Assembly (NCBI RefSeq): GCF_030145815.1
Contig: NZ_JAIXHL010000002.1
Coordinates: 231,141 to 295,140, forward strand
Direction of reading: 5' to 3'
Length of the DNA: 64,000 nucleotides
Source: Sphingomonas sp.
GTDB taxonomy: Bacteria; Pseudomonadota; Alphaproteobacteria; Sphingomonadales; Sphingomonadaceae
Part shown: positions 1,113 to 52,013 of the stretch, in pieces
How the letters are laid out: each line of letters begins with the position of its first letter
How positions within the stretch are numbered: position 1 is the first letter of the stretch
Position numbers and translations under genes: made by a program
Notes under the pieces: model-generated
Databases searched by the model: none
Told to the model about the DNA's origin: nothing
Seen by the model: the letters and a program-made list of their open reading frames with translations, nothing else

Positions 1113-1355
1113 TGATGGAGGTCGACGGGGGAACCCTTCGATCGCCATTAGTGTCAATTCGCCGGTCGTTCATAGGGACCACTTCGCACCCCAATAGCGG
1201 TTATTCAAGCTAACCTATGACGGCCCTAAACCTGACGATCACCATTGGCAGCTCTGATCTGCGATGGAATGAGGCGCTGGTCTACCCGTACTCCACAGGC
1301 TAGCATCCCGCTCAAGCCCCACCGGGCTAAAAGACCGCGGGGAACAGGGGGTGTG

Positions 1356-2672
1356 ATGGTTCTCTCTACAGATGTTCGTAGGAACAAGCTGACTGACATA
1401 AAGGCATCAGGCGAAAGTCAGGGCAAACAGAAGCTCTATTATATGGGTGAGACCCAGAGCTTCGATGTCTATCGGATCGACCTCGATCATCTGATCTATA
1501 ATCGACACAACGGTCGCATCGAGGCCGAGATGCTGACGTGGGAGCAGGAGAACGCTGCGCCGATCGGCACCTATGATGACGAACTGCATGAGAAGATCGG
1601 CACGTTCCTCTGGGATTCCAACAAGGGGAGGAATAAGGCCACCCTTACTGACCTGACTAGCAAGGGCCAACAGAAGCCGGGAATCGTCAGCCTCGATGGC
1701 GTGATCATCGATGGCAATCGGCGTGCCATGCTGCTCCGGAAGCTCGAAGGAGAATCCAAGAGCAAGCAGTACTTTGACGCCATCATCCTTCCCCACGCCT
1801 ACGCTGACAACCAGGCCGAGATCGTTCGTCTGGAGACGCAGTATCAGCTCGGCGAGGACGCGAAGGTCGAATACGGCCCGCTACAGAAATACCTTCACGC
1901 ACGTCGACTTCATGACGATCTCAACATCTCTGCCGAGGAGATCGACACACTGATGGGCGAGTCCCGCGGCAACACCAAGAAGTTGCTCGAGATCATGCAG
2001 CTCATGGACGACTATCTCGAGCACATCGGCTGTCCGAAGCTCTATTTGATGCTCAAGGACAGCGATGGCACGAAGGAAGGCATGTTCGTCGACCTTCATG
2101 CGGATCTGAAGCGCATCGAGGTCGGCAAGGCGAAGATCCCATGGGCGTTCGATCCGGACATTGACCCGTTGCAGCTTCGGCTGATCCAGTTCGACTACAT
2201 CCGGCTCGGTGACTTCGCCGACGCGAAGAAAGTGTACCGCGAAATCTCGCATCAAGGGAAGGACCGCAATTTCTTCGCGAGCAAGGATATCTGGGAGCAG
2301 TTCCGCGATAGCCATTCCGCGGAGATCGACCCGATCACGATGGAGATGGGGACGCTAGAGGCCTACATCGCGGCAGATCCGGATGCCTTCGCGACCAAGA
2401 TAGATGCGGCCCGTGCGCGGGACAAATCTTGGAGTGCGAAGGTCAATGCACCGATGAAGCGGAACTTCGGCCAGTCGAGCTACAAGCTCAACCTGGCGAC
2501 CGAGGTCCTGAAACCCGGCGAATACCTGAAGCGCGCTAAGGACCAACTCGACAAGATCGACCTGGATAGCGAAGGCCTTCTCTCCGCGGCGGAGAATGAG
2601 GCGCTTGCGGTCGAGATCGGCCGCATCGCCTTCAACATCAAGAAGCGTTTCGACCGTCGGGTCTCGAAATAG
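1356..2672 (+). CDS. ParB-like (ParB/Srx fold) domain protein
   Basis: Likely start MVLSTDVRRNKL; ParB-like motif GIVSLDGVIIDGNRRAMLLRKL; first gene of a tight three-gene + strand operon. Confidence 0.65.
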   Translation: MVLSTDVRRNKLTDIKASGESQGKQKLYYMGETQSFDVYRIDLDHLIYNRHNGRIEAEMLTWEQENAAPIGTYDDELHEKIGTFLWDSNKGRNKATLTDLTSKGQQKPGIVSLDGVIIDGNRRAMLLRKLEGESKSKQYFDAIILPHAYADNQAEIVRLETQYQLGEDAKVEYGPLQKYLHARRLHDDLNISAEEIDTLMGESRGNTKKLLEIMQLMDDYLEHIGCPKLYLMLKDSDGTKEGMFVDLHADLKRIEVGKAKIPWAFDPDIDPLQLRLIQFDYIRLGDFADAKKVYREISHQGKDRNFFASKDIWEQFRDSHSAEIDPITMEMGTLEAYIAADPDAFATKIDAARARDKSWSAKVNAPMKRNFGQSSYKLNLATEVLKPGEYLKRAKDQLDKIDLDSEGLLSAAENEALAVEIGRIAFNIKKRFDRRVSK

Positions 2673-2676
2673 GTAG

Positions 2677-4641
2677 ATGGCCACGATCGAGTATGATCCG
2701 GCTGACGAGCTGCTTATCCTGCGCGGCGCGGGAACGGTCGTCCGACATCCGCTATTGGCGGCATTCACCCGCCAGGTCGGCGGAGCGCTCGATGATGATG
2801 GGTCGCTGCGGATTCCGACCGCTCCCGAGGAACTCACCAACCGCTATCAGACGCTTTCTCGATTGCTGGCGAAACTCGCCGTCGAGATCGAGACCGGCGG
2901 GCATGTCTCGGACGCGTTGGACCGCGTCGAGTCGGAGGAGCAGCAGTTCGTAGAATTCTCGCGGCAGGCTCGTGCGATCTGGGATGCGCAGATAGACACC
3001 GAAGCCTTCCGTGATTTCGTCGCTGTCGTCGAGGAGGCCTGCCCGGGTCGCACCTTCTATCGCAAGCAGCTCCTCTCGGCGTTCCATCTCGCCTTCTCGC
3101 AAAATGCGTGCAATTTCTCGGTGCCGGGCGCGGGCAAGACCTCGGTGGTCTACGCAGCCTATGCCTACCTTCGAAGTTTGCCGTCAGAGGACCCGAAGTC
3201 GGTCGATCGCCTCCTGATTGTCGGGCCGCTCTCCTCGTTCAAGGCGTGGGAGGACGAGTTCGCCTCGATCTTCAATCACCAGCCCGTGTCGCGCCGTCTT
3301 TCCGGTGGTGTGCCGACATTGGATCGGACCGATCACCTTCGTGGGATCAGCGTCAACTCGCGTTCAACAGAACTTACGCTCACCACCTATCAGACACTGG
3401 CGAACATGGAGGATGAGTTCCGGACCTTCCTCATGCGGGTCGCCCCCCGCGCGATGGTGGTTCTGGACGAGGCGCATTACATCAAGAGCGCGGATGGGCT
3501 GCAGGCCGCCGCGGCGTTGCGGCTCGCCCCACTAGCCCGTGCACGCGTGGTGCTCACGGGGACGCCGGCGCCCAACGGTTACGAGGACCTCGCGAACCTG
3601 TTCCGCTTCATCTACCCGACACGAAACATCACGGGGTTCCCGACGGCCTCCCTGCGGGCCATGACGGACGGCTTGATGCCCGCCGCCATCCCAGAGCTCA
3701 AATCCAAGATCGAGCCGTTCTACACGCGCATCCGCAAGAGCGACCTGTCGCTGCCCGACGCCGAGGAAAGGCGCGTCGCCGTGCCGATGTCGGCGGACCA
3801 CGAACGCATCTACCGGAGCCTCGAGAACCGCATCGTACCGCACCTGAAACAGCAGATGGACGATCCCTCGGCGACGATCAGGGTTCGGGCGCGGCTGATA
3901 CGCCTTCGCCAAGCGGCCGTGAATCCGGAGCTCCTCCTGCGCCCACTCGAGACCGAGGATGGTATTTTCGACACGGGCGGAAGCGGCGATCTCAACATCG
4001 CCGAACTCGAGGTGGCCGACCTGATCAGGAACTTCTCCGCCAGGACGGACCTCGCCCGCCTCGGGGTGTGTCGGACATTGACCATCAGCGTGCTGGCCGA
4101 TCAGGGGAAGATCCTGATCTGGTCCTATTTCCTCGGGAACCTCGACCTATTGCGGCGTGGGCTCGGTGACCTTGCGCCTTTCATCGAGGTCCTCACCGGC
4201 GCGACCCCCGTGGCCAGTCGCGAGGATGACGCGGCCGTTGAGCTTGGCACGCGAGAGGAAATCATCGACCGGTTTCACTCCACCACCGACCGGGCGATCT
4301 TGATCGCGAACCCTCAAGCGGTCGGTGAATCGATCTCGCTGCACAAGGCATGCAGGACAGCCATCTATTTTGACCGGGACTTCAACGCGGGCCGCTTCAT
4401 TCAGTCAAAGGACCGCATCCACCGATACAATCCAGCCGGCGGCGAAGCGGTCACTTATCATCATCTGGTCACGCCCGGAACCGTCGATCAGGATATCGAC
4501 ACTCGGCTCACGGTGAAGGAACGTCGACTTGCGGACCTCGTAGACAAGGATGACATCCCGCTGTTGACGGCGGCCGATGACAGCGACCTCAGCGATCTGC
4601 GCGCTATCTTCGAGGCATATGAGCGCCGCAAGGCCCAGTGA
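2677..4641 (+). CDS. SNF2/DEAD-like superfamily II helicase
   Basis: Walker A-like SVPGAGKTS, Walker B MVVLDEAHYIKS, LTGTPAPNGYEDL, C-terminal helicase motif SKDRIHRYNPAG. Confidence 0.85.
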   Translation: MATIEYDPADELLILRGAGTVVRHPLLAAFTRQVGGALDDDGSLRIPTAPEELTNRYQTLSRLLAKLAVEIETGGHVSDALDRVESEEQQFVEFSRQARAIWDAQIDTEAFRDFVAVVEEACPGRTFYRKQLLSAFHLAFSQNACNFSVPGAGKTSVVYAAYAYLRSLPSEDPKSVDRLLIVGPLSSFKAWEDEFASIFNHQPVSRRLSGGVPTLDRTDHLRGISVNSRSTELTLTTYQTLANMEDEFRTFLMRVAPRAMVVLDEAHYIKSADGLQAAAALRLAPLARARVVLTGTPAPNGYEDLANLFRFIYPTRNITGFPTASLRAMTDGLMPAAIPELKSKIEPFYTRIRKSDLSLPDAEERRVAVPMSADHERIYRSLENRIVPHLKQQMDDPSATIRVRARLIRLRQAAVNPELLLRPLETEDGIFDTGGSGDLNIAELEVADLIRNFSARTDLARLGVCRTLTISVLADQGKILIWSYFLGNLDLLRRGLGDLAPFIEVLTGATPVASREDDAAVELGTREEIIDRFHSTTDRAILIANPQAVGESISLHKACRTAIYFDRDFNAGRFIQSKDRIHRYNPAGGEAVTYHHLVTPGTVDQDIDTRLTVKERRLADLVDKDDIPLLTAADDSDLSDLRAIFEAYERRKAQ

Positions 4642-5584
4642 CGGCCTGCTCCCCGCTGGCTCGACCATCTCGATGGTCGAGCTGCTGGCGAGAAGGTCTG
4701 ACGGGACGTCGATAGACCACCTGTTGAGGGACCTTGCCGCGATCAACAGCATATCTTGGTCGAGGGCCCGGAACACGGTCGCAAAGCTGATCGCGTATGG
4801 CTTGTTCGAGACCGACGCCAAATCCTTGGTCCGGCTGGCTCCTGGAGAGCGCCCGGACGTGCCGGATTGGATCGCGGAGCGGGTCGCCGCCGAGTTCACC
4901 GCGCTGCTGACAAAGGCCGAAGCCTGGTCATGCGTAGGTCGTGATCCGGCGACCGGCGACCTGACGATCGACGCCATGACACTGCCGCCGATCCGGGACG
5001 GCTTGGCGATGTGGCTAACCGAATTCGCGATCGCCCAGCGCGCGGCGGTTCAGACGCGTTTCTGGAAGGTGTCCGACAATCACAACAACGCCTTCCTGAG
5101 GGGCGCTCGAGATGCGAACAAGGAGACGCCGCGCCGGGCGAAGTCGGCCGAGCGCCTCGCTGCCGATCTAGCTCAGCAGGCCGAGGCTGGCGCGGCCGCC
5201 GAGGTATGGGTCGTCCAGTATGAACGCGAGCGGTTGTCCGATCATCCATTGCGAGACCAGATCCGCCGGGTCTCGGAGGACGACGTCTCGGCGGGATATG
5301 ATATCGTGTCATTCGCTTCGGTCCATTCGATTCGGCACGATCGGTTCATCGAGGTTAAGTCGTATGGCGAACGGAAGGTGTTCCATTGGTCGCGCAACGA
5401 GATCGCGACCGCTGTGGAATTTGGTGAGGACTATGCGCTTTACCTCGTGGATCGCGAGCGGTGCGAGCAGGCGGGATATTCTCCCCACATGATAACTGGA
5501 CCCACGCCAGAGATGTTCGCCTTGCCCGACAGCGGTTGGCGCGTTGAGGCCACCTCGTTCGAGCACGTCGCCATCTCGGAATAA
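4619..5584 (+). CDS. DUF3883-type domain protein (putative nuclease-fold)
   Basis: C-terminal GYDIVSF...RFIEVKSYGERKVFHWSRNEIATAVEFGEDYALYLV matches the DUF3883 pattern; start overlaps the end of the helicase gene by about 23 nt. Confidence 0.7.
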   Translation: MSAARPSDGLLPAGSTISMVELLARRSDGTSIDHLLRDLAAINSISWSRARNTVAKLIAYGLFETDAKSLVRLAPGERPDVPDWIAERVAAEFTALLTKAEAWSCVGRDPATGDLTIDAMTLPPIRDGLAMWLTEFAIAQRAAVQTRFWKVSDNHNNAFLRGARDANKETPRRAKSAERLAADLAQQAEAGAAAEVWVVQYERERLSDHPLRDQIRRVSEDDVSAGYDIVSFASVHSIRHDRFIEVKSYGERKVFHWSRNEIATAVEFGEDYALYLVDRERCEQAGYSPHMITGPTPEMFALPDSGWRVEATSFEHVAISE

Positions 5585-5586
5585 AT

Positions 5587-6006
5587 TCAGCTCAATCGAG
5601 GAGACCCCAGGAAGTCAGTCAATCGCCTCGTCAGGTCGGCTATGTCGCGGGTCTCGCACTCCCAGATCGTCAGCGTCTCCCAGCCAAGTGCGGACGCGTC
5701 ACGCTCGAGCCGGTCATCCCGCTCACGATTGCGCGCGAACTTCGCCTTCCAGAACTCGGTGCGGGTGGAAGGTGTCCGGGAGAGGCTGCAGCCGTGGGCA
5801 TGCCAGAAGCAACCATGGATTTGCACGCAGCGTCGACGAGCTGGGAATGCGATGTCAGGTCGACCAGGGACCTCGCCGAATTGGACGCGGAAGCGGTAGC
5901 CCAGGCTGTGAAGGAGCCGACGAACGACCAGTTCTGGTTTGGTGTTCGCCCTGCGGATGCGCGCCATGTGCGCGCTACGTTGTTCAGGTGTCAGCCGATC
6001 CGCCAT
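5587..6006 (-). CDS. vsr: very short patch repair (Vsr) endonuclease
   Basis: MADRLTPEQRSAHMARIRRANTKPELVVRRLLHSLGYRFRVQ...PGRPDIAFPARR...IHGCFWHAHGC, canonical Vsr motifs. Confidence 0.92.
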   Translation of the reverse strand: MADRLTPEQRSAHMARIRRANTKPELVVRRLLHSLGYRFRVQFGEVPGRPDIAFPARRRCVQIHGCFWHAHGCSLSRTPSTRTEFWKAKFARNRERDDRLERDASALGWETLTIWECETRDIADLTRRLTDFLGSPRLS

Positions 6007-6038
6007 TACCGGCGATATAGGGTGGAGCTATGGGATGT

Positions 6039-7709
6039 TCACCGTGCTGAAGTCTCCGACAACCTCCTTTTGGGCTGATTGCGGATCGGTGCGGCCAAGA
6101 GGGGATTCACGCGCGACGCGATGAGCAGCCCGGCCAGGATCAAGGCCGCGTTACGCTGTAATTTGGGTACGCCCGGGATATCCGCGAGGCCGTCGCGATA
6201 CTCATGCTCGAGCATCGAGGCTATCAGGCGCTGTGCCTCCGCGTCGTGATCGGCCAGCGCATCGATCAGGCTCGAGCCCGTTTCGCTGAGTTTGTCCAAC
6301 ACCATGAAGGGACGTGTCCCGCCGGGCCCATGATGGCTCCAGACCGCCTGCAGGTTGTGGATGTCGGCCGTCGATATGAAGTCCGCGAGATCATCGAGCG
6401 GCGCGGTGACTGCCTCCGTCAGTTCGATCGACATGGCCGATGTCAGCCTCCGCGCCATGGATTGGTCCAGGACGAGACTGAGTATCTCCTTCGACGTCCC
6501 GAAGTAGAACGCGACCTCCCATCGGACATCCGCCCCGCAGTGATCGTTCCGAAACTCGAAACGGACGCCGCTCTTCAATTGCAGGCTTGGTATCGCGAAC
6601 CGGAAGGTCCGCGTGGTCGGATAGCGCGCTCCTGCGCGATCCGGTGGCGTCTCAACTGGAGTGGGCACCGGCCGCACCAGCGCCTTGGCGACGTCTGACA
6701 ACGGCTGCACCTTGTCAGCTGGGTGGTCTTGGAGGACATGCCCCATCAGGTAGGCGAACGCGGGCGGTACGGCGTTCCCGATCATGCGGAGCTTCTGACC
6801 GTAGTTCGCCCCGTAAAACTGGAAGGTAATCGGAAAACCTTGGAGGCTGGCTCGCTCCCGCAGCGTGAGCCGCCGATATTCCTCACGATCGGACCCGGTC
6901 GCGATGACGATGCTCTCGCGTGACACGCGCGTGCATGTGGCGGTAATCGTCCGAACGGTCCGATCCAAGGGATCGGGGAATGGCATGGCATTGTAGACGG
7001 TGTGCGTTACCTTGTGGGACCGGTTGATCCGGGCCTCCTCGAAATTCAGGACGTCCTCCTCGACATGATCGATCAGGTCCTCGCGTGGTATGGCGATGCC
7101 AAAGATGGGATCGACGACAATCTCATTCTTCAGCGAGCGGATCACATCGCCCAGGAGCCGTGGCCGGGTGTTGGCTTGGTAGGATTCCAGCAGGCCGATG
7201 TCGAAGTTGCCGGCGACGCACCGCCGTCGCCGTTGAGGCAGGCCATAGTTGGCCATGTCAATGATATGCGTCACGCAGCCCAGATGATTGAACTCCTCGA
7301 GCGCTCCACCCTCCTTGAGTTCCGCCTCGATGATCTTCGCCACACGGGGCACGTTCTCCATTGCCCAGACACGCGGTTGCAGATGATCGACGATGGTTAG
7401 GAAATGCTTCACGTCTTCTAGACCATCGGCGATGTCACCGCCCCCACCACGATTGCTGTAGGAGAACTGGGTACAGGGGGGGCTGCCGACGACGATGTCT
7501 ATGTCGTCAGGGAGGTCTGCGAGCGCTAGCCGGCGGATATCAACCGTCTGCGCTTGATGGAAGTTGTTCTTGAAGTTGGTCTCGTTCGCAGGTCCCCATT
7601 TCTCGTAGGACGCGACAACTTCGACGTTCGCCAAACGCAACCCCAATGACCATCCGCCGACACCGGAGTAGAGGTCGATCGCCCTCGGCCTTTTCGATTT
7701 GCGTCCCAT
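6039..7709 (-). CDS. DNA (cytosine-5) methyltransferase with C-terminal extension
   Basis: Start MGRKSKRPRAIDLYSGVGG; motifs GSPPCTQFS (IV), ENVPRV (VI), LPQRRRRCVAG (VIII), LQGFP...GNAVPP (IX/X); then about 230 aa of unassigned C-terminus. Confidence 0.92.
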   Translation of the reverse strand: MGRKSKRPRAIDLYSGVGGWSLGLRLANVEVVASYEKWGPANETNFKNNFHQAQTVDIRRLALADLPDDIDIVVGSPPCTQFSYSNRGGGGDIADGLEDVKHFLTIVDHLQPRVWAMENVPRVAKIIEAELKEGGALEEFNHLGCVTHIIDMANYGLPQRRRRCVAGNFDIGLLESYQANTRPRLLGDVIRSLKNEIVVDPIFGIAIPREDLIDHVEEDVLNFEEARINRSHKVTHTVYNAMPFPDPLDRTVRTITATCTRVSRESIVIATGSDREEYRRLTLRERASLQGFPITFQFYGANYGQKLRMIGNAVPPAFAYLMGHVLQDHPADKVQPLSDVAKALVRPVPTPVETPPDRAGARYPTTRTFRFAIPSLQLKSGVRFEFRNDHCGADVRWEVAFYFGTSKEILSLVLDQSMARRLTSAMSIELTEAVTAPLDDLADFISTADIHNLQAVWSHHGPGGTRPFMVLDKLSETGSSLIDALADHDAEAQRLIASMLEHEYRDGLADIPGVPKLQRNAALILAGLLIASRVNPLLAAPIRNQPKRRLSETSAR

Positions 7710-7848
7710 AATAGCCCCCACGAATACACGGGAACCCTTCAATAGATCCTCTCGCGCTATTGCAAGATCTTTCGTCGCCACGTGTGCGGCTTCAAGTCGG
7801 AGCAAGCCGACTAGCCGTGTCAGCCGCCGCCCTCGCGTCGGGTATGCG

Positions 7849-8280: not shown

Positions 8281-9729
8281 ATGAGGCAGCTTGAGGTTGA
8301 GAACCAGCTCCGCGATGTGGTCAGCCGCATCATCCTTCAGGTGGAGCTGGCGACGGCGCAGGGTAGGACCGACATAAACCTGGCGCTGGAGGATGCGTTC
8401 ATCCCCATCCTGAAGTCGGTCTTCAACCTGCCGCACCTTATAAACCTCAACCGCAAGCAGAAGAACTATCCCGGCATCGACCTCGGCGACGACCACGACC
8501 GCGTCGCCTTCCAGGTGACGTCCACGACCGGCCTGGAGAAGGTGAAGTTCACGGTCGGCCAGTTCATGACCCGATCCTACTACAACACGTTCGATGAGCT
8601 CTACGTGCTGATGCTCGGGAAGAAGCAGTCATCTTACAGCCAAAACGCCGTGAACGCGCTTCTGACGGAGGACTTTTCCTTCAATTGCGCCAAGCACATC
8701 ATCGACCTCGGTGACATCCTGGGCATGGTGACCGGACTGCGGTTGGCCGCGCAGGAGCGAGTGCTGGCGGAGTTGAGGCACATCCTCGGCGAGGTTGACG
8801 CCTTCATCAGCATCCGTTCCGAGACGGTCGAGGCGCCGACCGCGATCACAACCAATCTGCAGGAGATCCGGCTGCCCGATGCCGTGTACGTCGCCGAATT
8901 GACGATCAACGATAAGGCAGTGGTCGAGCGGGCGAAGGTTGAGCTGAGCTACAGGGGGTATGCCAAGGGTCGCAGGGCGGTCGTGAAGATGGCCCTGCTC
9001 CTGAACGACGTGCAGACCGACGCATGGGTCTGTCATGACAACAAGCTGTTCTCGTTCACGGATATCGCCTCCAGCGGCCTCGTCAGCATCGTGGACGAGG
9101 GCACCGTGGAGCGGCTGGACGTCGCCGATCTGGCAGACTCCGACGAGCTGGACAACGTCAACGTCCTGAAGCAGCTGCTCGCGGCCGAGGCTCGTCAGAT
9201 GCTCAAGGCGCGCAACGTGCGCGCCCATCCGAAGGACGGCTTCTTCTTCTTCGTGCCGTTCGAGGATGGCCAGGACATCCGCAGGGAGGCCTGGGTCGGC
9301 AAGGCCAACGCGACCCGCACTGTCTATGTGGTCAGGTATCAGAAGAAGGACCCGGACAAGGTCCTGCACCATCAGCACTTCTCATTCGAGCTGACGTTCT
9401 CGAACCTTGGTGGGACCTGGTTCGCCCAGATCGTGCCGAGTTGGTATTTCTCTTACGACGGCTTCAGGCGGTCGAACTGGCACGACAAGCTGCTGTCCAA
9501 GCAGAAGCGGCTCGAGCTCAACCTGAGCGTGCGGAATGCGGTGCGTTTCGTCGCGTACTTCCTGTTGAACAGCAGCGGGGCGGATGAGGCGGATGAACAG
9601 TCGCTGAGGTTCGGAACGCTACTCGAGTTCGACGTGGATCGCGATGGCGAGGAGGACCTGGACGACGGGGACATCGCCGCGGATGCCGCCTTCGATGACG
9701 ACATGACCGATGATGAGGTGGCGGCATGA
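8281..9729 (+). CDS. SMEK-like N-terminal domain + APAZ-like domain protein (short-pAgo partner)
   Basis: N-term ...NRKQKNYPGIDLGDDHDRVAFQVTSTTGLEKVKF (SMEK-type); C-term KLFSFTDI...GTVERLDVADL...GFFFFVPFEDG...WFAQIVPSWYFSYDGF...KQKRLELNLSVRNAVRFVAYFLL (APAZ-like); overlaps the downstream PIWI gene by 4 nt. Confidence 0.7.
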   Translation: MRQLEVENQLRDVVSRIILQVELATAQGRTDINLALEDAFIPILKSVFNLPHLINLNRKQKNYPGIDLGDDHDRVAFQVTSTTGLEKVKFTVGQFMTRSYYNTFDELYVLMLGKKQSSYSQNAVNALLTEDFSFNCAKHIIDLGDILGMVTGLRLAAQERVLAELRHILGEVDAFISIRSETVEAPTAITTNLQEIRLPDAVYVAELTINDKAVVERAKVELSYRGYAKGRRAVVKMALLLNDVQTDAWVCHDNKLFSFTDIASSGLVSIVDEGTVERLDVADLADSDELDNVNVLKQLLAAEARQMLKARNVRAHPKDGFFFFVPFEDGQDIRREAWVGKANATRTVYVVRYQKKDPDKVLHHQHFSFELTFSNLGGTWFAQIVPSWYFSYDGFRRSNWHDKLLSKQKRLELNLSVRNAVRFVAYFLLNSSGADEADEQSLRFGTLLEFDVDRDGEEDLDDGDIAADAAFDDDMTDDEVAA

Positions 9730-11135
9730 AACTGACCACCCTTGCAGAGCCGCTTCTCGAGTTCGGCACCGGAACGCACATCTGCCCGCGCACGGGCATC
9801 GAGAACATGGGAGTCTATGACAAGCGCGATGAGCTGCGCCGGACCGAGCTTCGGATTGGCGTCGTTGGTCGCGGTGAGGGCATCGACCTCTTCGACGAAT
9901 GGCTGGAGCGCTGCCGGGAGGGCGTCGAGCGCAAGAAGGAATCCCAGCTCCTGAACCTTTTCCGTGGCTTTGGAGGGGTGAACCAGAGCTATGGCTTTCT
10001 CACTAGGCTGATCAACTCGCCCCAGTATGCACGGCTGCTCAAGAAGTCGGAGATCACGGCGATCGTGAAGCTGGCCTCTCGCGCCGACCGAGTAGAGCGG
10101 GCCGTAAATCTCTATTACGAGCAGATCCGCTTCCTGGCCGAGAACAGGTCCGTCGACGTGATCGTCTGCGTCATGCCGAACGAGATGTTCGATTCCGTGA
10201 CCACCGCCGCAGTCGGCGACGACAAGGATGATAGCGAGCTCGAGCACAACTTCCGGAGGAGGCTGAAGGCCCGGTGCATGCACCTCGGGACGCCGCTTCA
10301 GCTCGTCCGGGAGAAGACCATCCTCATCACCAAGTTCGCCGGAGAGCAGCAGGATCCCGCGACGAAGGCCTGGAACTTCTGCACGGCCCTCTACTATAAG
10401 GGGAACCGGACGATCCCCTGGCGGCTGGTCGAGGACGGCTCCAAGCTGAGATCGTGCTACATCGGCATCGGGTTTTACAAGAGCCGTGACGGCGAGACAG
10501 TGTCGTCCAGTCTGGCACAGGTCTTCGACGAGTTCGGCCATGGCATCATCCTGCGCGGGACGCCCGTTTCAATCGACAAGAAGAACCGGCATCCCTTCCT
10601 GAGTGAGGATCAGGCCTACGAACTGCTCAGCGACGCGCTGGACGAGTATGACCGCGCGTTGGAGCACATGCCGGCCCGGATCGTCATCCACAAATCCAGC
10701 CGGTTCCGCGATGGCGAGCGCAAGGGCTTCTTGCGGGCGTTGAAGGAGAAGGGCATCCGCTCGAAGGATTTCGTCGCCATCACGGACACCGACGTCCGCC
10801 TCTTCAGTGACAAGAAATATCCGCCCAAGCGAGGAACCCTGCTAACCATCTCGGAGACTGAAGGCGTCCTGTATACGAGGGGCACCGTTGATTTCTACAA
10901 GACTTATCCGGGACAGTACGTGCCGAGCCCGCTCAAGATCACGGTCTACGAGCAGGACTCTTCGCTCGAGAGCCTGTGCGATGAGATTCTTGGTCTGACC
11001 AAGATGAACTGGAACAACACCCAGATGGACGGGCGACTGCCTATCACGCTCGAATGCGCGAAGAAGATCGGCGACATCATGAAGTATGTGAGCGTGAACG
11101 AGAAGCCACAGGTCAGTTACAGCTTCTACATGTGA
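9726..11135 (+). CDS. short prokaryotic Argonaute (MID-PIWI)
   Basis: RRRLKARCMHLGTPLQLV (MID-like); PIWI signatures YIGIGFYKSRDGETVSSSLAQVFDEFGHGIILRG, PARIVIHKSSRF, KKYPPKRGTLLTISETEGVLYTRGTVDFYKTYPG, LTKMNWNNTQMDGRLPITLECAKKIGDIMKYV; about 470 aa without N/PAZ. Confidence 0.88.
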   Translation: MKLTTLAEPLLEFGTGTHICPRTGIENMGVYDKRDELRRTELRIGVVGRGEGIDLFDEWLERCREGVERKKESQLLNLFRGFGGVNQSYGFLTRLINSPQYARLLKKSEITAIVKLASRADRVERAVNLYYEQIRFLAENRSVDVIVCVMPNEMFDSVTTAAVGDDKDDSELEHNFRRRLKARCMHLGTPLQLVREKTILITKFAGEQQDPATKAWNFCTALYYKGNRTIPWRLVEDGSKLRSCYIGIGFYKSRDGETVSSSLAQVFDEFGHGIILRGTPVSIDKKNRHPFLSEDQAYELLSDALDEYDRALEHMPARIVIHKSSRFRDGERKGFLRALKEKGIRSKDFVAITDTDVRLFSDKKYPPKRGTLLTISETEGVLYTRGTVDFYKTYPGQYVPSPLKITVYEQDSSLESLCDEILGLTKMNWNNTQMDGRLPITLECAKKIGDIMKYVSVNEKPQVSYSFYM

Positions 11136-13336: not shown

Positions 13337-15031
13337 ATGACCGAACGCCGACGCGCCTTCATCTATCTGCGGGTCAGCAATGACGATGAAGGCGGCAACA
13401 ACGCCTCCAGCGCGGCGCAGGAGGCCGCCTGCCGCTCCCTGTGCGAACGCGAAGGTATTGCGGTGGCCGAGGTGTTCGAAGAACTGAACGTGTCAGGCCG
13501 AAAGCTGCAGCGCAGGCAGTTCGACCGGATGATCGCACTGGCGACCGCTCCTACCCGCCCGGTGGACGTCGTCGTCGTTTACGCGCTGAGCAGATTCACC
13601 CGGCGCCTGCTCACTCAGGTCACCGCCGAGCACAAGCTCACCGAGGCCGGGGTGAAGCTGATATCCGTCATCGAGGGGATGGGCGACGATCCCAACAGCC
13701 GGATGATGCGCGGGTTCATCGCGGTGATGAACGAGAAGTACGCCAACGATGCATCCACGTTCACGTGCCGCGATCGGCGCGGCAATGCGCAGGCGGGGTA
13801 CTGGAACGGTGGTCCGGTGCCGTTCGGCTATGAATCCCGCGTCGTGACTATTGAGGGACGCAAGGAGCGCAAGAAGCTGTTCGCGCGCGAAGACGAGGCG
13901 GCAACCGTCCGCCTGATCGTCAAACTGGCCTGCTCCGGACTGACCGGCCAGCCGATGGGCACGCGAGCGATCGCAAAATATCTGAACGACAATGGCTACA
14001 CGATGCGGGGCAGGAAATTCTACCACAGCAACGTCGATGGCATCCTGACGCGCGAACATTATGCCGGATCCTACCGCGACCGCACGCGCGACGATAACGG
14101 CGTGCCCCCAAGCGCTGCCGACGAGATCGTTGTCGCATGCCCAAAGATTATCGAGCCCGATGTGATGGCCCGCGTTGCCGCAATCCGATCACGGGCGGCC
14201 CCGCGCGTGACGGCGCCGCGCACCACCAACTCGCCAGTGCTTCTCGGCGGCCTGGCGACATGCGGGCATGCCGAATGCAACGCCGGCATGGTGATCAGGA
14301 GCGGCAAGGGCGGCCGGTACCGCTATTACGTCTGCAACCGCAAGGCGACGGCCGGTGCGGATATTTGCGGTAGCAGCTCGATCCGCGAAGATGCGCTCGA
14401 CACCATCGTACTGGATGGCCTGCTCCACCGTGTGCTTTCCCCCGACCGCTTGCGCCAGCTTCTCGCTGACGTGCTCGACCGTTCCGATGACGCGAGGCAG
14501 CGCCGCGAAAGGGATCTCGGCCGCGTTCGGCGCGAGCGCGTCGCGGCGGAGACGCGGCTCCGGCGGCTGCTCGAGATCGTCGAGGAAGGCATGATGAGCG
14601 TGCGCGATCCGATCTTCGCAGCGAAGCTCGCAGAAGCCAATGCGTCCATCGCCGCACTTTCGGAGACTGAGCGCAGTCTAGCCGGGCAGCTCGGCAGCGC
14701 GTCGCGCCAGATCACGGACGAAGCGATCCAACAATTCGGTAATGCGCTGCGTGCTCGCATCATGGCCGAGGATAGCGCCATGCGCCGCGCCTACGTTCGC
14801 CTGCTCGTCTCCAGCGTGACGGTCAACGACAACGAAATCGTCATAGCGGGGTCAAAGGCAGCCCTCGAAAATGCTGCCCAACAAGGCGATCCCGCAGCTT
14901 GCGCCGCGGTGCCCAGTTTTGACCGGAAGTGGTGCCCCTGGCCGGACTCGAACCAGCATGCCTTGCGGCGGTCGATTTTGAGTCGACTGCGTCTACCATT
15001 TCGCCACAGGGGCAGCGAGCGGGCTGGCTAG
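13337..15031 (+). CDS. large serine recombinase (resolvase + recombinase + zinc ribbon)
   Basis: MTERRRAFIYLRVSNDDEGG...VVVYALSRFTRR...; zinc-ribbon-like region LGGLATCGHAECNAGMVIRSGKGGRYRYYVCNRKATAGADICGS; coiled-coil C-terminal part. Final ~35 codons are antisense tRNA-Leu. Confidence 0.92.
   Translation: MTERRRAFIYLRVSNDDEGGNNASSAAQEAACRSLCEREGIAVAEVFEELNVSGRKLQRRQFDRMIALATAPTRPVDVVVVYALSRFTRRLLTQVTAEHKLTEAGVKLISVIEGMGDDPNSRMMRGFIAVMNEKYANDASTFTCRDRRGNAQAGYWNGGPVPFGYESRVVTIEGRKERKKLFAREDEAATVRLIVKLACSGLTGQPMGTRAIAKYLNDNGYTMRGRKFYHSNVDGILTREHYAGSYRDRTRDDNGVPPSAADEIVVACPKIIEPDVMARVAAIRSRAAPRVTAPRTTNSPVLLGGLATCGHAECNAGMVIRSGKGGRYRYYVCNRKATAGADICGSSSIREDALDTIVLDGLLHRVLSPDRLRQLLADVLDRSDDARQRRERDLGRVRRERVAAETRLRRLLEIVEEGMMSVRDPIFAAKLAEANASIAALSETERSLAGQLGSASRQITDEAIQQFGNALRARIMAEDSAMRRAYVRLLVSSVTVNDNEIVIAGSKAALENAAQQGDPAACAAVPSFDRKWCPWPDSNQHALRRSILSRLRLPFRHRGSERAG
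14930..15013 (-). tRNA. tRNA-Leu (CAA), CCA encoded
   Basis: Reverse complement GCCCCTGTGGCGAAATGGTAGACGCAGTCGACTCAAAATCGACCGCCGCAAGGCATGCTGGTTCGAGTCCGGCCAGGGGCACCA: acceptor, D, anticodon, variable and T arms all present. Confidence 0.95.
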
Positions 15032-50917: not shown

Positions 50918-51952
50918 TCAAGATTTATTTGAATTTTCGTATGATGAAAGCACGAAATGGCTTAGATGGAGAACTACCTGAGCAGTTTCCATAATGTATC
51001 TCTGAATCTCTCTATAGCGATTTGCATCCTGCGTTCTTAGCATTTGAAAAGCCTGAACTACATTTGTGATACCCCGATCTCTATGCGAACCAATGGTATC
51101 ACCGATGTCCTTTATAACATCGCGATGAGAGTATGTTTTTCCTTTTATAGTCAAAGCAGGAAATCGTAACCACACATCCAAATCAACGGGGTTGGATTTA
51201 AATAAAGTCGGCTTAGCCAACGCAGGTGGTTGAAAGGTTATTACACTGTCGATTGATAATGTTAATTCAGGATCCCGGCCGCAAAAAACTATGAGTGGCA
51301 ATTTATCAAACGCCGCACAGTGTTGCAGAAGCCCCAGAGGCTTGTCGATAATCAGCAGGCGAAGGCGCGATGCAAGCCCAAGAACATGAGCCTCCCTCCC
51401 TCTTTTTAAGGCGTCAATGAGATCTTCTAACTGCTCCGACTCATCATTAAGGGCGGAAAGTAGATAATTTCTTCCCCCCGCCTTTCTTTTTGGTTGATCC
51501 CGAATTTGCTGCAATGTTAAGTAACGACTTTCCTGGGCTTTTCCATTTTCTATCGCATAATCGACATTATCACCCGGCTCTTTGTCGTCTATAATTAATG
51601 GCCCTGTAAATTCGGTATTTGGAAATATCGAATGACGGTTCACTTCCAATTCAGATATTTTACTGTTCTCCCAGATCACGCAGATAATGGCGATCGGGTT
51701 GGCCTCGACGTGGATTTCGGGAGTGGCCAAGCTATCAATAAATCCGCCCACCCCTTCTTCGCGAGACCGGAGAGTGGCTTCTATAGTCCCATTTGGCCTC
51801 GCTCCGATGAGTAAGAACCCATCCAGAAGCTGGTATTCCATGAACAAAATAGGGTGCGGGACCGGCCACGGCGTAGGCAAGTCCAGGGAAACGAATAATG
51901 TACCAGCAGAGAGAGATGGAACTGCAAGGGTCATGCCCTGGATGATAGTCAC
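50918..51952 (-). CDS. hypothetical protein on an AT-rich segment (probable xenolog)
   Basis: 344-aa ORF MTIIQGMTLAVPSL...; clearly lower GC than flanks; lies between rsmE and gshA; no recognised domain. Confidence 0.7.
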   Translation of the reverse strand: MTIIQGMTLAVPSLSAGTLFVSLDLPTPWPVPHPILFMEYQLLDGFLLIGARPNGTIEATLRSREEGVGGFIDSLATPEIHVEANPIAIICVIWENSKISELEVNRHSIFPNTEFTGPLIIDDKEPGDNVDYAIENGKAQESRYLTLQQIRDQPKRKAGGRNYLLSALNDESEQLEDLIDALKRGREAHVLGLASRLRLLIIDKPLGLLQHCAAFDKLPLIVFCGRDPELTLSIDSVITFQPPALAKPTLFKSNPVDLDVWLRFPALTIKGKTYSHRDVIKDIGDTIGSHRDRGITNVVQAFQMLRTQDANRYREIQRYIMETAQVVLHLSHFVLSSYENSNKS

Positions 51953-52013
51953 CTGCTCTGAGCATTACGACTCCGCTTTATCAACGCGTAAAGCGCGTCA
52001 CTTGCTCCAATGC

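Follow-up and report, generated by a model that had tools for sequence, protein, structure and literature searches.

A five-gene cassette in a Sphingomonas sp. genome, encoding a ParB-like protein, an SNF2 ATPase, a NOV_C (DUF3883) protein, a Vsr endonuclease and a C5-cytosine DNA methyltransferase (MTase), is conserved as a single unit in a second genus, and its first three genes recur as a fixed trio beside DNA MTases of two classes. The cassette lies within the 64,000-nucleotide stretch of DNA analysed here (hereafter the window) and is probably a mobile defence of the restriction-modification (R-M) type, in which the trio would carry out ATP-dependent restriction while the MTase provides self-marking and Vsr provides repair. 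A tight forward-strand operon of the ParB-like, SNF2 and NOV_C genes faces the Vsr and C5 MTase genes convergently. This organisation had been described in a first-pass annotation, and all five open reading frames proved to be intact with the positions and spacing that it gave (Table 1).

Table 1. Features of the cassette and of its surroundings, in window coordinates
Feature	Position	Strand	Length	Remarks
ParB-like protein	1356-2672	+	438 aa	first gene of + operon
SNF2 (SF2) ATPase	2677-4641	+	654 aa	4-nt gap after ParB-like gene
NOV_C (DUF3883) protein, putative PD-(D/E)XK nuclease	4619-5584	+	321 aa	23-nt overlap with SNF2 gene
Vsr mismatch endonuclease	5587-6006	-	139 aa	downstream of MTase, same orientation
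C5-cytosine DNA MTase	6039-7709	-	556 aa	upstream of Vsr; MTase part residues 1-330, C-terminal extension 336-556
SMEK-domain protein and short pAgo pair	8281-11135	+		genes overlap 4 nt; adjoins cassette
Large serine recombinase	13337-15031	+		3' end overlaps tRNA-Leu(CAA)
tRNA-Leu(CAA)	14930-15013	-		

Conservation of the cassette as a unit

The domain assignments in Pfam are SNF2-rel_dom (E = 1.3e-23), NOV_C (2.6e-14), Vsr (1.4e-27) and DNA_methylase (4.2e-41), and the Vsr protein also scores above the cut-off of TIGR00632 (139 bits). No Type II restriction endonuclease (REase) was found in the cassette by Pfam, PADLOC or NCBIfam, models which divergent REases can escape; the earlier remark that a conventional enzyme of this type is lacking thus agrees with these searches.

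A genome from another genus of the same family (G1013, locus L119) has an identical five-gene content and layout. Its DNA matches the window at 79% identity across positions 1347-7772 and nowhere outside them, giving a conserved block of about 6.4 kb. Since this second genome holds the same genes as one block, the five-gene arrangement is not due to chance; the proposal that the five genes form one composite locus is borne out, and the forward operon and the vsr-dcm pair do co-occur elsewhere. Ratios of dN/dS between the window and L119, which are approximate as dS is near or above 1, are 0.03 for ParB, 0.06 for SNF2, 0.16 for NOV_C, 0.05 for Vsr and 0.08 for the MTase, and all five genes are plainly under purifying selection. 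The locus of Hyphomonas sp. ih12 (L003) carries ParB (62% identity), SNF2 and NOV_C genes together with a convergent C5 MTase, which is frame-broken in that MAG, and an Mrr-like gene upstream; Vsr is missing from this locus.

It is very unlikely that the cassette consists of two unrelated defences in a shared island, the forward operon being one and the Vsr/MTase pair the other. Their convergent orientation implies that they are transcribed separately, Vsr is missing from most relatives, and the neighbouring pAgo pair (see below) shows that this island does stack systems. However, both parts move between genera as one block with identity ending at its edges, and the distances of the C5 MTase and SNF2 proteins correlate at 0.91 (20 loci). 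Moreover, the convergent C5 layout recurs in the Streptococcus prophage Javan191, which repeats the window layout: an REase gene is followed by ParB, SNF2 and a NOV_C gene that shares 26 nt with SNF2, and the C5 MTase gene is convergent.

Distribution and partners of the ParB-SNF2-NOV_C trio

Homologues are uncommon, occurring in 7 of 385 genomes sampled from the class, 4 of 399 from the phylum and 7 of 401 from the order, counts that each include the window's own genome. A close-relative scan with P0001 alone recovered Hyphomonas only, viral contigs scanned with the same query gave nothing, and profile searches were needed to go beyond it; P0003 had no match in plasmids by tblastn. Further loci came from plasmid, phage and viral-contig searches, with duplicates removed. 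The resulting set, which was seeded from the ParB-SNF2-NOV_C family itself and is not exhaustive, holds 39 distinct three-protein loci, with NOV_C a weak match in two of them (L036 and L022). The order ParB>SNF2>NOV_C on one strand is kept in 39/39, and the protein distances between trio members correlate at 0.91-0.95. The loci span Pseudomonadota, Bacillota and, weakly, Actinomycetota, and their locations include plasmids, prophages and an ICE. Two genomes (L023 and L124) have a ParB homologue with no SNF2 detected alongside. On three Enterococcus plasmids (L005, L006 and L009) a protein of about 860 aa with a sigma-70 region 4-like HTH precedes ParB and SNF2; no MTase was detected nearby by the profiles used, and a Type I R-M system adjoins L006.

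In 34 of the 39 trio loci a DNA MTase is adjacent, of the C5 class in 19 and of the N6/N4 class in 15; two of the five loci that have none, L022 and L029, come from contigs some 5 kb long. The viral scan also supplied 52 other SNF2 loci as controls, and 5 of these had an MTase within 7 kb, one of the five being a cut-off member of the ParB-SNF2-NOV_C family. The linkage of the trio with DNA MTases, first suspected from the window, is confirmed by this comparison. Counted over all loci of the SNF2 tree (54 rows), there are at least 4 switches of MTase class and 10 changes in the REase slot that precedes ParB, which indicates that the module has been reused with different modification genes.

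The location of trio loci on plasmids and an ICE, the predicted ParB fold and the presence of ParA genes upstream on two Exiguobacterium plasmids could also be explained if the trio served the partition or maintenance of mobile elements and its nearness to R-M genes were incidental. This is highly improbable, as no ParA was seen immediately next to the operon elsewhere among the annotated loci and the constant partner of the ParB-like protein is an SNF2 ATPase with a nuclease, in most cases accompanied by the MTases described above.

The slot before ParB is occupied by a Type II REase in 28/39 trio loci: BglII-like (PF09195) in 13, BanI/DpnII-like in 9, and a PADLOC REase_II protein (2.8e-19) in 6 loci of rhizobial type. 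No REase was recognised in the window, L119, L021, L024, L025 or L027, and that of L003 is the Mrr-like one. More distant Bacillota relatives (L007, L010, L037 and L038) have a PLD domain fused to SNF2, and in these PLD-fused relatives the slot REase is Sau3AI/MutH-like; true fusions are limited to proteins of 850 aa or more. The PLD labels of six lactic-acid-bacteria-type contigs (L008, L030, L052, L053, L058 and L061) were rejected as spurious, the profile having contained SNF2 sequence, and the proteins concerned are of about 630 aa (split in L058); the tally of nuclease changes from the SNF2 tree was discarded for this reason. These contigs carry ParB and SNF2 after Type III-like Mod and Res genes, with no NOV_C. 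Type enzymes of the BglII, DpnII, Sau3AI and MutH families often recognise GATC-containing sites, and the slot REases of L028, L038, L037, L020 and L011 fall into families of this kind, which may be chance. In L027 (6280-8756), a gene for a GHKL/MORC-like ATPase and a Methyltransf_35 gene are divergent from the locus formed by the trio and its N6/N4 MTase.

The C-terminal extension of the window's C5 MTase is common to the enzymes of L119, L003, L056 and L123. In L056 and L123 the BglII-like REase is kept within an N6/N4 clade, yet the MTase is a C5 enzyme with the window-type extension. The idea that this extension is a hidden REase was rejected, as both loci combine it with a BglII-like REase and its sequences show no evident D/ExK set. 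The Vsr gene is present in 7/19 C5 loci and 0/15 N6/N4 loci, a restriction to C5 loci that is expected if Vsr repairs deaminated methylcytosine, and the proposed link of Vsr to C5 methylation is upheld by this distribution.

Most relatives already hold a Type II REase, so the trio does not have to be the restricting enzyme and may instead have an accessory or a repair/clearance role. In this alternative, the trio would serve R-M systems of Type II or Type III that are already complete, for example by degrading or clearing REase-cut DNA, and the window copy would be a reduced form, without the REase it once had and perhaps impaired in restriction. The frequency of the REase in the slot before ParB favours such an accessory role of the trio in general, and C5 MTases with the same extension occur both with a BglII-like REase (L056 and L123) and without one (window, L119 and L003); in the Lactococcus-type loci ParB and SNF2 follow a complete Type III Mod and Res pair. 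For the window, however, the alternative is rather unlikely: members lacking an REase recur across the set and all five window/L119 genes are under strong purifying selection, which does not resemble decay; together these points favour a trio that restricts by itself.

Predicted proteins and candidate mechanism

The ParB-like protein is only weakly assigned by sequence (Pfam ddrB-ParB, E = 0.03). Its AlphaFold (AF2) model has a pLDDT of 88, and the best Foldseek matches of this model are the CTP-/CDP-bound Myxococcus ParB and the Noc CTPase (E = 2.6e-4, with modest TM-scores); a profile comparison also matches the Myxococcus ParB weakly, with GNRR aligned to GERR. The model suggests a ParB/Noc CTPase-fold N-domain with a Box-II motif and GNRR box, followed by HTH-like helices and a helical C-terminus. 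Residues R54, Q105, G115, N121, R123, E160, Q164 and Y173 are invariant over 21 homologues. Proteins with ParB-CTPase folds bind CTP, ATP or GTP via the Box-II arginine (PMC12704722).

The SNF2 protein belongs to a distinct SNF2 subfamily, with the Walker A sequence NFSVPGAGKT and the motif QSKDRIHR in the window and, common to the family, FSVPGxGKT and QSxDRIHR; the catalytic residues are invariant among homologues. In the NOV_C protein, E195, D228, E245, K247 and E261 are invariant over 13 and 19 homologues, and the first four of these correspond to the E, D, ExK catalytic set of a PD-(D/E)XK nuclease. The N-terminus is probably a wHTH. The structure model of this protein is confident over the nuclease domain only, and with an N-terminal half of low confidence it had no significant match in Foldseek.

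The combination of MTase, nuclease and translocase is the established logic of ATP-dependent R-M, and a candidate order of events can be proposed along these lines. The C5 MTase would mark the host copies of its own target site, and Vsr would repair the T:G mismatches that arise from methylcytosine deamination. The ParB-like protein would bind NTP and DNA and act as a DNA-engaging switch that sets the module on unmarked DNA, the SNF2 protein would be the motor that moves along the duplex, and the NOV_C nuclease would be the cutter. In most relatives, where the trio adjoins a Type II REase, it probably enhances or completes restriction begun by that enzyme. The window lineage has no REase gene, and here the trio would therefore itself be the cutting arm; that it is the only visible restriction arm in the window is the best reading. 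More specifically, it can be put forward as a tentative possibility that a ParB-type clamp gated by NTP is loaded onto unmarked target DNA and then passes it to the SNF2 translocase and NOV_C nuclease, the three forming a self-contained module compatible with C5 or N6/N4 modification genes and with varied Type II REases. No sequence-recognition part was identified within the trio. We infer that the proteins would form a complex and act in this order on a recognised target, with defence as the outcome; co-inheritance of the genes falls short of proving a complex.

If the proposed function is correct, the cassette would represent an unnamed and widely spread R-M architecture in which a ParB-fold protein is paired with an SNF2 motor, and the ParB-CTPase fold would gain a role in immunity. 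As the same trio is found both in the presence and in the absence of a Type II REase, and beside MTases of different classes, it offers a natural experiment in which its role can be separated directly.

Related systems and genomic surroundings

Kinship with DISARM or BREX, suggested in the first-pass annotation, is not sustained, as only generic SNF2 and MTase domains match. By PADLOC and Pfam, the DISARM proteins DrmA (helicase), DrmB (DUF1998) and DrmC (PLD) are absent from the cassette, in which DISARM models give generic domain matches to SNF2 (DrmD) and the C5 MTase (DrmMII) only, and PglZ, BrxC/PglY and PglX-type MTase of BREX have no match among the cassette genes. For Zorya, the ZorD model scores 44 bits against a cut-off of 1500, and there is no ZorA or ZorB among the five genes. 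ZorD, DrmD and DpdE of Dpd likewise have an SNF2-type ATPase domain, but the cassette SNF2 is far below the cut-offs of these families and their other components are absent from the cassette.

In CglI and NgoAVII, ATP-dependent restriction by translocation is achieved with a C5 MTase and with nuclease and SF2 ATPase on distinct proteins (PMC4267653, PMC5737866), a division of parts that the window shares, its C5 MTase matching PF00145. However, the CglI nuclease is of the PLD-B3 type and its ATPase of the DEAD-Z1 type (PMC4267653), with no ParB, whereas the window has NOV_C, SNF2 and a ParB-fold protein, and no PLD, B3 or Z1 domain was matched in the cassette by Pfam. The cassette is distinct from BREX, DISARM, Zorya and CglI. 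The nearest published concept is the group of R-M operons with SNF2, MORC/GHKL, C5 MTase and Vsr described by Iyer et al. 2008 (PMC2292703), which share the SNF2 ATPase, cytosine MTase and Vsr, plus a nuclease. These operons are defined by MORC/GHKL and are not described with ParB or NOV_C, whereas the window has both and no MORC; in the present set, MORC-like genes occur only near L027 and possibly L034. In Lactococcus FM03P, a PLD-SNF2 protein paired with an MTase has been proposed as a restriction subunit (PMC6098607); compared by description only, the window differs in having its nuclease as the separate NOV_C protein.

Ordinary Type II R-M systems need no ATPase. Many relatives combine an MTase, a Type II REase of the BglII, DpnII or Sau3AI families and the trio, whereas the window has the MTase and no site-specific REase gene of its own was found there. 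A check for a named system of the same composition returned none: no model for the set as a whole is present in the PADLOC, NCBIfam and Pfam releases used, and no description of a ParB-SNF2-NOV_C set was found in open-licence literature.

The SMEK/pAgo pair that adjoins the cassette matches the PADLOC models for REase-type short Argonautes Aga_REase and pAgo_I (7e-184 and 6e-185); it is likely a short-Argonaute (SPARDA-like) system and is of a separate, already known kind. The serine recombinase and tRNA-Leu(CAA), with rpoB and rpoC just beyond, probably mark where an integrated element ends on the right. About 3.5 kb to the left of the window there is a relaxase gene (L012:10466-12589), and the combination of these features suggests a mobilisable element integrated beside core genes. 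A search of the own genome for a second tRNA-Leu att copy gave only a 75% match and no obvious att. Further along the window, positions 51001-52000 have a GC content of 0.47 against a background of 0.65, under an unmatched 344-aa ORF on the reverse strand (50918-51952).
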